Origin: Phycisphaerae bacterium
GTDB taxonomy: Bacteria > Planctomycetota > Phycisphaerae > JAJVII01
DNA length: 64,000 bases
Reading direction: 5' to 3'
NCBI GenBank assembly: GCA_022072085.1
Contig: JAJVII010000033.1
Coordinates: 1 to 64,000, forward strand
Shown here: positions 6,740 through 9,756 of the stretch, one piece after another
Layout of the letters: each line of letters begins with the position of its first letter
Position numbering within the stretch: position 1 is the first letter of the stretch
Made by a program: the position numbers and the translations under genes
The notes under the pieces: model-generated
Told to the model about the DNA's origin: nothing
What the model saw: the letters and a program-made list of their open reading frames with translations, nothing else
Database searches by the model: none

Positions 6740-7426
6740 TCAACCGCCGTGGGCCTCGACGGCGCCCAGCGCCTGCGGAAAGAGCACGCGGTTTTCCTTG
6801 TAGATGTGCAGCACCAGGTCGTCGTGCAGACGCGTTAGATGCTGCTCGACCTGGGCCGCCAGGTTCGCCTCCACGCCTGCCGACGCCAGCAACCCCTCGG
6901 CCCGCATCCGCTTGAAGCCGCGCAGCGCCTGCTTGGCCGCCTCGTGCTCGTGCTCCATCTGGGTGATCGGCCCATCGAGGTGACCGCAACCGACCGTGAT
7001 TCGGCCGGTGGCTTCAAGTTCGCGGATCATCGGGAAGAGGATCTGCTCCTCCTTGGCCAGGTGCATCTCAAGCTCGGCGCGGAGTTGCTCGTGCAGGTCG
7101 AGCATCGCTTCGACCTTCTCCGGCTCGCGAGCCGACGCAACCGCCCGGGCCAGCAGGTTGCTGCCGGCCGGCAGCCACTGGCGCAGCCGCGCGTGATGCG
7201 TCGCGAGGATGTCGTCGATCAGGTCGGCGGCGGACAGGCCCCAGGGCCCGGCGCCGGCCTGGGCGGCTGCCAGGGCCCCGCTCAACTCGCAGCCGCACAT
7301 GCCCAACTCCGCAGCCGCGTCGGCGACCGTCCGGCCGTCGGCCTTGAGTCCGTGGAACTCCAGCCCAGCCGCAACGCCAGGCCAGCGGCGGGCCAACTCA
7401 GCCAGCGTGAGCGATTTGACGTCCAT
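6740..7426 (-). CDS. Hemerythrin-domain di-iron protein (RIC/ScdA/YtfE-like), iron-sulfur cluster repair
   Basis: 228 aa. The ATG at 7426 follows GGGAGAA; in-frame sequence further upstream is non-coding in character. The N-terminal ~60 residues resemble the ScdA/DUF542 domain but lack its usual adjacent cysteines; instead there is MCGCEL. The C-terminal hemerythrin-like domain has the expected iron ligands: HHARLRQWL, LHEQLRAELEMHLAKEEQILFP, MEHEHEAAKQAL and LHDDLVLHIYKENRVLFP. Family members repair nitrosatively or oxidatively damaged Fe-S clusters. An FNR/DNR-type box lies upstream (7509-7522), and a Crp/Fnr regulator is the adjacent upstream gene on the same strand. Confidence 0.87.
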   Translation of the reverse strand: MDVKSLTLAELARRWPGVAAGLEFHGLKADGRTVADAAAELGMCGCELSGALAAAQAGAGPWGLSAADLIDDILATHHARLRQWLPAGSNLLARAVASAREPEKVEAMLDLHEQLRAELEMHLAKEEQILFPMIRELEATGRITVGCGHLDGPITQMEHEHEAAKQALRGFKRMRAEGLLASAGVEANLAAQVEQHLTRLHDDLVLHIYKENRVLFPQALGAVEAHGG

Positions 7427-7480
7427 AGCAGTTCTCCCATGTCGGATCCAGCGATCCGGGAACGTCCCCTGCACGCCTGT

Positions 7481-7522
7481 ATCATCGCAGGCCGCGGCAG
7501 CGGGGGCTGTGACGTGGATCAA
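7481..7522 (-). promoter_or_regulatory. FNR/DNR-type box (7509-7522) and -10 element (7481-7486) for the hemerythrin gene
   Basis: On the minus strand TTGATCCACGTCAC matches the TTGAT-N4-(A/G)TCAA consensus of FNR/DNR regulators at nine of ten positions. A GATGAT -10 at 7486-7481 would start transcription near 7474, which puts the box centre at -41.5, the class II activation position. The adjacent regulator has the matching ETISR recognition helix. Confidence 0.55.
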
Positions 7523-7719: not shown

Positions 7720-8400
7720 CTAACTCTGGGCCAGCTCTTCAAGGCCTCGCGGATCCTTCAGGGCGATCTGGGACTTGGGTAGCTGGGTAATCAGGCCCAG
7801 CGTCTCGAGGTGGCCGAGCGTTCGGCTGATGGTTTCGCGGGTCAGGCCGAGGTGGGCGGCCAGTTCCTGGTGTTTCAGCGGCAGCGTCACCATCGTTTCC
7901 CGGCCGCGGCGCAGCGAGACGATGTACTTGGCGACGCGGCCGGCAGCGTCGCGCAGGACGATGCTCTCCATCAGGTCAACCATGCGCCGCAGCCACTGGC
8001 TCATACCGGCCAGCAGCTTGAGCGTGATCTGCGGGTGATCGACCAGCAGCTTGAGCGTCGGTCCCTTGGGCATGAAGGCCAGCTCGGCGTCCTCAACGAC
8101 CTCAGCCGACACGGGGAAATCGAACCCGCCGAAGACGGCCGCCTCGGCGAAGGTCTGGCCGGGCTCGGCCATGTGCAGGATGTGCTCCTTGCCCTCGGGA
8201 CTGACCTTCGCGAGTTTCACCTTGCCGGCGCCGACGACGTACATGCCGACGCATGGCGTGTCCTGCTCGAAGAGCCGTTGGCCTCGCGTCGCCCGGTCAA
8301 GTCGGCTGATCTCGGCGAGCGCGGCGATCTGGGCCGGGTCAAGCGACGCGAAGAGGCGACAGTTGCGCAGCACACGAACGACATCAGGCTCGTTATCCAT
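7720..8400 (-). CDS. Crp/Fnr-family transcriptional regulator (FNR/DNR-type specificity)
   Basis: 226 aa from the ATG at 8400. Residues ~10-125 are a cyclic-nucleotide-binding-type beta-roll (LFASLDPAQIAALAEIS, GMYVVGAGKVKLAKVSPEGKEHI), followed by the long dimerisation helix and a winged HTH. The recognition helix LGLTRETISRTLGHLE contains E-x-x-S-R, the FNR residues that read TTGAT half-sites. The N-terminal iron-sulfur cysteines of FNR are absent, so it is more likely a DNR/NnrR-type sensor of NO or redox state through another cofactor. It probably controls the hemerythrin gene immediately downstream, and possibly itself. Confidence 0.88.
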   Translation of the reverse strand: MDNEPDVVRVLRNCRLFASLDPAQIAALAEISRLDRATRGQRLFEQDTPCVGMYVVGAGKVKLAKVSPEGKEHILHMAEPGQTFAEAAVFGGFDFPVSAEVVEDAELAFMPKGPTLKLLVDHPQITLKLLAGMSQWLRRMVDLMESIVLRDAAGRVAKYIVSLRRGRETMVTLPLKHQELAAHLGLTRETISRTLGHLETLGLITQLPKSQIALKDPRGLEELAQS

Positions 8401-8473
8401 GCCGCAAGCATAGCCGATCACCAGAGCGCAGGCCACAAGGCAGCGAAAAGTCACAGGCCGGTCGGGCTGTTTT

Positions 8474-8501
8474 TTGCATCCCGCGCAAGGCATGCTATGA
8501 T
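8474..8501 (+). promoter_or_regulatory. Sigma-70-like promoter
   Basis: TTGCAT at 8474-8479, a 16-nt spacer and TATGAT at 8496-8501. It would start transcription near 8508, in front of the structured element that follows and divergent from the regulator gene. Confidence 0.5.
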
Positions 8502-8507
8502 TGAGTT

Positions 8508-8665
8508 AGCGGGCGCGACAGGCGCCCCGCCCTGACCCCGTGGCGTAGAGCGAGAGGGTCATCAACTACCACCCAGCCCAATCGAGGGCTTAAGACAGGG
8601 CCCAAATAACCGCCACGCCACGGGGCATCTTCATGTACCCCGCCTCACGCCGCTGTCCGCGGCAG
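8508..8665 (+). ncRNA. Candidate structured RNA (free ncRNA or 5' leader of the lipoprotein gene)
   Basis: No gene fits 8401-8728. A perfect 10-bp stem pairs CCCCGTGGCG (8536-8545) with CGCCACGGGG (8616-8625). Inside are GGGT/ACCC (8556-8559/8571-8574) and AGCCC/GGGCT (8575-8579/8586-8590, loop AATCGA). A 5' GC hairpin (about 8510-8530) and a 3' hairpin GCCGC/GCGGC (8649-8653/8659-8663) flank the core. I see no match to the conserved motifs of SRP RNA, 6S, tmRNA or the common riboswitches. Confidence 0.45.
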
Positions 8666-8728
8666 CAGTCATTTATTCACTGGAACCCCTCCCCCGGGCC
8701 GATAGAATGAATCATTGCTGACACTGCC

Positions 8729-9607
8729 ATGCGATACGCAAAGCCCCTTGTCATCCTGGCCCTGCTCGCGGCGGGGACGGCGGCCTTGATTGGCTGCGAT
8801 TTCACCCCCGTCAGCGGCAGCGCGATGCTCGTCCTGAGCGTGACCGAGACCTCGGCGGCCAAGCCCGTCCGCGTCACCGTCGCGCTGGACGGCAACACGC
8901 TGATCTCCGGCGACATCCAGCCCGGTCAGACGCAGCGGATCGTGCTGCTCGACCCGGCCGACCCGCAGTCGCAGCGCGTGGAGATCGGCGAGCACCGGCT
9001 CACCTACAAGCTCTACCGGGCGATGGGCGCCTCCGGCAACGCCGAGTTGTCGCTGGAATCCGACGAGCGGCCGGTGCTGCTGGCCAACACCGGCGGAGTG
9101 GCTGCGGGGTTCTGGCGGCAGGGGACGTTCCGCTTCGACCTGCGCGAAGGCAAACTGCGCCCCGCGACGGTCAAGCCCGAGGCCATGCCCCTGCTGGGCA
9201 AGGGGCAGATCGTCGAGAGCCGCACGCCGTCGGGCGTGCCGATCCTCAAGCCGCCCCCGGGCGTTTCAACATCATCGGGGACAGACGCGGACGGCGGCCC
9301 GCCAACCGCCGCCGAGCCCGGCCCGCTGCCGGTGGACTGGGGCCCGGCCCCGGGCGAGCAGCCGGCGACGACGCCGTCGGCCGCGCCGCCGCCGGCGCCG
9401 CTGGCGCTGCGGATGCCGATCCTCAAGGACATCGACCCGCCGGGGCATGGCCTGTTGCACCCGTCGTCGGACCAGCCGGACGTGGCGGCCATGCTGGCGC
9501 CTGAAATGCTGTTCGTGCCGGTCAGCCCCTCCGACCGACCGGTCGTGGAGACCCGGTCCAACCCCGACGACGCGGGCAAGCCCAAGATGAAACTGGTGCT
9601 GGAGTAG
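8729..9607 (+). CDS. Putative lipoprotein, Pro/Ala-rich, function unknown
   Basis: 292 aa. The N-terminus has a lipoprotein signal with lipobox LIGC (Cys at about 24). Residues ~30-140 look like a small beta-rich domain (AMLVLSVTETSAAKPVRVTV, EIGEHRLTYKLYRAMG). The rest is a Pro/Ala/Gly-rich low-complexity stretch, probably disordered in the periplasm. A TAGAAT -10-like box lies 21 nt upstream of the ATG, and a structured RNA precedes the gene by about 65 nt. I do not recognise the family. Confidence 0.7.
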   Translation: MRYAKPLVILALLAAGTAALIGCDFTPVSGSAMLVLSVTETSAAKPVRVTVALDGNTLISGDIQPGQTQRIVLLDPADPQSQRVEIGEHRLTYKLYRAMGASGNAELSLESDERPVLLANTGGVAAGFWRQGTFRFDLREGKLRPATVKPEAMPLLGKGQIVESRTPSGVPILKPPPGVSTSSGTDADGGPPTAAEPGPLPVDWGPAPGEQPATTPSAAPPPAPLALRMPILKDIDPPGHGLLHPSSDQPDVAAMLAPEMLFVPVSPSDRPVVETRSNPDDAGKPKMKLVLE

Positions 9608-9681: not shown

Positions 9682-9756
9682 GGTGAGTGTAGCTCAGCTG
9701 GTTAGAGCACCAGGTTGTGGTCCTGGGAGTCGGGGGTTCGAATCCCCTCACTCACC
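9682..9756 (+). tRNA. tRNA-His (GTG anticodon)
   Basis: A full cloverleaf is visible: acceptor GTGAGTG/CACTCAC (9683-9689/9749-9755), D-arm GCTC...GAGC, anticodon stem CCAGG/CCTGG around the loop TTGTGGT (anticodon GTG), and T-arm GGGGG-TTCGAAT-CCCCT. The G at 9682 opposite C9756 is the extra G-1:C73 pair specific to tRNA-His. CCA is not encoded. Confidence 0.96.

Follow-up and report, generated by a model that had tools for sequence, protein, structure and literature searches.

A candidate structured small RNA with its own promoter, divergent from a Crp/Fnr-family gene in Phycisphaerae

Promoter and closing stem of the intergenic region

The intergenic region 8401–8728 of the window (the whole 64-kb stretch of DNA that was analysed) is bounded on one side by a minus-strand gene of the Crp/Fnr family, here termed crp, and on the other by a plus-strand gene for a predicted lipoprotein. 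The order is represented by two genomes, the window's own (G000) and that of Phycisphaerae bacterium STB_87 (G001), and the main features of the locus are listed below together with their state in the latter.

7720–8400, minus strand: Crp/Fnr-family regulator gene, divergent; a 61% identical orthologue adjoins the RNA in G001
8474–8501, plus strand: promoter, with TTGCAT at 8474–8479, a 16-nt spacer and TATGAT at 8496–8501; similar site in G001
8493–8501, plus strand: extended −10 element TGC-TATGAT, TGCTATGAT
8508–8640, plus strand: core of the proposed RNA, its start placed from the promoter; homologous to G001 from the promoter to TGTACC
8509–8530, plus strand: 5′ hairpin seen in folds of the window sequence; absent from G001 and window-specific
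8536–8546, plus strand: 5′ arm of stem P1, CCCCGUGGCGU; 11 of 11 pairs kept in G001, four with two-sided changes
8615–8625, plus strand: 3′ arm of stem P1, ACGCCACGGGG; the same 11 pairs and four two-sided changes
8626–8639, plus strand: U-rich 3′ flank, CAUCUUCAUGUACC; UUCUCUUUUGUACC in G001
8729–9607, plus strand: predicted lipoprotein gene, downstream and not a conserved partner

A promoter TTGCAT-16-TATGAT had been proposed in a sequence-only reading of this stretch, and it is present at that place, additionally with the extended −10 element and a similar promoter in G001. It is the sole sigma-70-like match in 7800–9400 (shuffles: mean 0.0, sd 0.2), and the pattern TGnTAWNAT occurs once in the whole window, at 8493–8501 of this promoter. 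The perfect 10-bp closing stem described by the same reading at 8536–8545/8616–8625 is also real and proves to be one base pair longer, P1 comprising 11 bp that are 100% complementary with the arms 68 nt apart. Among 300 dinucleotide-shuffled versions of the intergenic region, a single one contains a perfect inverted repeat of at least 11 bp. The whole transcript folds with a z-score of −2.3 to −2.5 (−2.3 for 8508–8672), while a z-score of −4.3 is obtained for 8533–8628, a sub-window picked after the stem was seen; compared with shuffles, the plus strand folds better than the minus strand. The U-rich flank following P1 is possibly a weak terminator tail, and no strong terminator is found in the window copy. 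We infer that the RNA is transcribed and that its transcription ends near P1, the 3′ end lying, with some uncertainty, at about 8626–8680. On the opposite side of the region, the minus strand carries TATGCT at 8407–8412 (TATGTT in G001). In either genome this hexamer precedes the start codon of crp by 6–7 nt, and the crp mRNA may be leaderless.

A homologue in STB_87 and covariation of P1

When the intergenic region is searched at nucleotide level against 61 genomes, only short chance matches appear outside the window, and the best of them (G043, E 0.004) appears to fall in coding sequence. The DNA divergent from the G001 crp orthologue nevertheless holds a clear homologue, which occupies the same place in the same order and orientation as in the window; a gene-anchored intergenic comparison can hence reveal a homologue that nucleotide search misses. 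The G001 promoter reads TTGCTC-17-TATAGT with TGC before the −10 element. Downstream of it the copy contains the stem CCTGCGGTGACG/CGTCACCGCGGG, the segment CATCAACTAC, which the window shares unchanged, and a U-rich flank; as in the window, this flank ends in TGTACC. It folds independently to low energy, with a z-score of −3.0.

Covariation of the closing stem in homologues, which the sequence-only reading had proposed as a check, is found between the two genomes. In alignment A3, which was chosen with the structure in view, all 11 pairs of P1 are kept, four of them changed on both sides (C-G/G-C, U-A/C-G, C-G/U-A and U-A/A-U), one altered from C-G to U-G and none broken. Random changes, as many per arm as observed, leave the 11 pairs intact in a fraction of 1.7e-4 of trials, and shifting the partners by 1–3 columns abolishes every two-sided change. 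The shuffle control for covariation, which is weak for two sequences, gives 26 of 500. Read from the complementary strand, the U-G pairs would become A-C mismatches; these changes therefore point to the plus strand as that of the RNA, which is also the strand of the promoter.

Inner domain and family membership

The domain enclosed by P1 displays the following elements, which can be arranged in two ways.

8556–8560, plus strand: 5′ strand of P2, GGGUC; pairs with 8599–8603 (fold A), or through 8556–8559 with GCCC at 8576–8579 (fold B)
8560–8569, plus strand: segment CAUCAACUAC, 10 nt, identical in both genomes
8575–8590, plus strand: hairpin P3, AGCCC (8575–8579) with GGGCU (8586–8590); 3 of 5 pairs kept on the alignment, similar hairpin in G001
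8599–8603, plus strand: 3′ strand of P2, GGCCC (fold A)

In fold A, GGGYC pairs with GGRCC around the short hairpin P3, with one G-A mismatch in G001, and this arrangement lies near the minimum-energy fold of the G001 copy. In fold B, GGGY pairs with GCCC and generates a hairpin with CAUCAACUAC in its loop. The two folds use common segments and are mutually exclusive, and both are possible in both genomes. The inner hairpins that the earlier reading had described are predicted in folds, with less certainty than the closing stem. The conserved segment is a candidate interaction site.

The window RNA region gives no match at gathering score, and none credible at E up to 10, to the 4227 families of Rfam 15; the G001 copy, searched at E up to 10, likewise has none that is credible. 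A match to a known Rfam family had been named as the result that would speak against a new RNA, and neither copy provides one. Resemblance to 6S RNA and to common riboswitches, which had been denied from the letters of the sequence, is equally missing among Rfam models at E up to 10. For 6S RNA (RF00013) in particular, the model has no match at the locus at E up to 10 and the 6S RNA of the genome lies elsewhere, over the cut-off, at G000:C5:39779–39962. The only Rfam match in the window is a tRNA gene at 9683–9756 on the plus strand. No reading frame is shared between the window and G001, in keeping with the absence of a coding signal noted earlier. The lack of an Rfam match and the covariation in the homologue together support the proposal of a new structured RNA with a promoter of its own, as far as can be judged at sequence level.

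A covariance model of the element (R1) detects a single copy per genome in G000 and G001 and no other credible copy in samples of 397 genomes of the class and 392 of the phylum (748 distinct, stricter filters). The other matches are weak, and the best of them, in G117 (E 5e-4, again 600 bp on), is a tandem repeat that resembles coding repeats and is devoid of P1. Applied to 32 crp loci, 31 of them from a scan of genome contigs, R1 yields a sole new match, L073, which is the G001 genome itself and was discarded as a third sequence. The upstream regions of more distant crp genes (L037–L048), inspected by reading, contain no such element. The conserved pattern finds no match in viral contigs and one match with 1 mismatch in the phylum. 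On the present data the family appears restricted to this order, and a diverged distant relative could be missed. Together the two copies make a credible case for a new RNA family, of a kind already known, whose function we only infer.

Free RNA or leader, and possible function

The region from about 8508 to about 8640 is probably the gene of a free small RNA, structured and roughly 120–165 nt long, with its own extended −10 promoter and divergent from the Crp/Fnr-family gene. The sequence-only reading had left the choice between a free RNA and a leader of the lipoprotein gene. The linkage of the RNA with crp is kept between the two genomes whereas the downstream gene is not, being a lipoprotein gene in G000 and a GNAT-like acetyltransferase gene (weak family match) in G001, and this favours the free RNA over the leader.

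A cis-acting leader or riboswitch, in which P1 and the U-rich flank would form a terminator and the inner domain would bind a ligand or protein to control the following gene, is rather unlikely. Such a role would suit the same-strand genes that begin downstream of P1, at a distance of about 100 nt in G000 and about 64 nt in G001, the CUUCUCUUUUG that follows P1 in G001 and the two alternative inner folds. Yet the genes that follow are unrelated to each other, the element matches no known riboswitch family, and the lipoprotein homologues G001:C571 and G000:C64, which have ordinary-looking ribosome-binding sites, are not preceded by the element; a lipoprotein search of the genome contigs gave no matches. 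The locus shares with the riboswitches and structured leaders of the Rfam cis-regulatory class a promoter, a structured domain, a possible terminator and a gene within about 100 nt, and differs from them in the lack of an Rfam match and in a downstream gene that changes between the two genomes. The same pair of inner folds could also be imagined in a bolder role, in which the RNA would be a switch whose conserved GGGY, by pairing with GGRCC or GCCC, exposes or hides CAUCAACUAC when a ligand or protein binds. In its partnership with the Crp/Fnr-family regulator it would need neither Hfq nor ProQ, and Phycisphaerae would then possess a regulator-RNA pair of a new kind; this reading is speculative and unlikely.

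It is more doubtful still that the conserved DNA is the divergent regulatory region of crp, with its promoters and operators, and that the RNA stem has no function of its own. The element does lie upstream of crp in both genomes and the promoter-proximal DNA is conserved too, but compensatory changes that include C-G to U-G, in arms 68 nt apart, are expected of an RNA and not of a DNA operator; moreover, comparison of G000 with G001 reveals no shared dyad operator, and over 100 bp lie between the crp start and the beginning of the element. That the product is a short open reading frame is very improbable, since the 25-codon ATG frame from 8633 in the window has TTG in place of its ATG in G001, where it runs into the GNAT frame, and, of the short GTG/TTG frames in G001, the GTG frame stops at its third codon in the window (GTG GCG TAG).

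The best reading of the locus is accordingly that of a putative lineage-restricted, trans-acting small RNA in a layout like that of GcvB and gcvA, where control by the neighbour and the targets are presumed. GcvA activates the divergently transcribed small RNA gene gcvB (PMC1557403). As with GcvB, the proposed small RNA is structured, has a promoter of its own and lies divergent from a transcription-factor gene, and the position beside crp is kept between genera (G000 and G001). In contrast, the window RNA has no sequence or Rfam relation to GcvB, its neighbour is a Crp/Fnr-family protein whose control of the RNA is putative, and GcvB belongs to organisms possessing Hfq, a protein not found in either G000 or G001. 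With 6S RNA the proposed molecule has in common a free, rod-like form, a similar size class and a closing stem, and it differs in that the locus has no 6S model match and G000 has a separate 6S RNA.

In the proposed mechanism P1 would enclose the core and probably contribute, together with the U-rich 3′ flank, to the end of transcription, while the inner domain would present the conserved and mostly single-stranded CAUCAACUAC. Through this segment the RNA would pair with other RNAs or bind a protein, and so act in trans. The neighbouring Crp/Fnr-family regulator would control the RNA as GcvA controls the divergent gcvB. Neither Hfq nor ProQ is recognised in G000 or G001, where controls were detected and G001 is 87% complete, so the small RNA would work without them. 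No operator for the regulator, in the form of an FNR- or CRP-like dyad shared by both genomes, was found. A search for targets by the exact 10-mer complement of CAUCAACUAC (30 of 42 sites inspected) found none; the sites fall in predicted frames and probably reflect the codons ATC AAC TAC read on the opposite strand, the backwards control being uninformative for a pattern that reads the same backwards.

Annotated regulatory RNAs are scarce beyond the well-studied phyla, and outside over-represented groups one to two small RNAs are known per genome on average (PMC9029176). The element would add a new family to the RNAs of Phycisphaerae, one whose promoter, structure and genomic partner are conserved and whose host genomes have no recognisable Hfq or ProQ.

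The surroundings of crp provide some further observations. On the same strand after crp lies a hemerythrin-domain gene (6743–7522, minus strand) that resembles iron-sulfur repair proteins (TIGR03652, below cut-off) and is absent from the corresponding place in G001; this neighbour hints that the regulator may respond to NO or to nitrosative or oxidative stress. In two other Planctomycetota (L037 and L039) a crp homologue is divergent from a gene whose product starts with M(F/Y)CNQCEQ and looks like a hybrid-cluster protein (hcp), which would again point to nitrosative stress. Two lipoprotein paralogues stand side by side at G000:C64:9507–10600 (L033/L034) with the ribosome-binding sites AAGGAG/AAGGA, unlike the lipoprotein gene at 8729, which has no ribosome-binding site. 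Near the stop codon of G001 crp, about 100 bp (L036, 2227–2325) recur inverted nearby with 79% identity, forming a large imperfect inverted repeat that is perhaps a terminator or a small mobile element.
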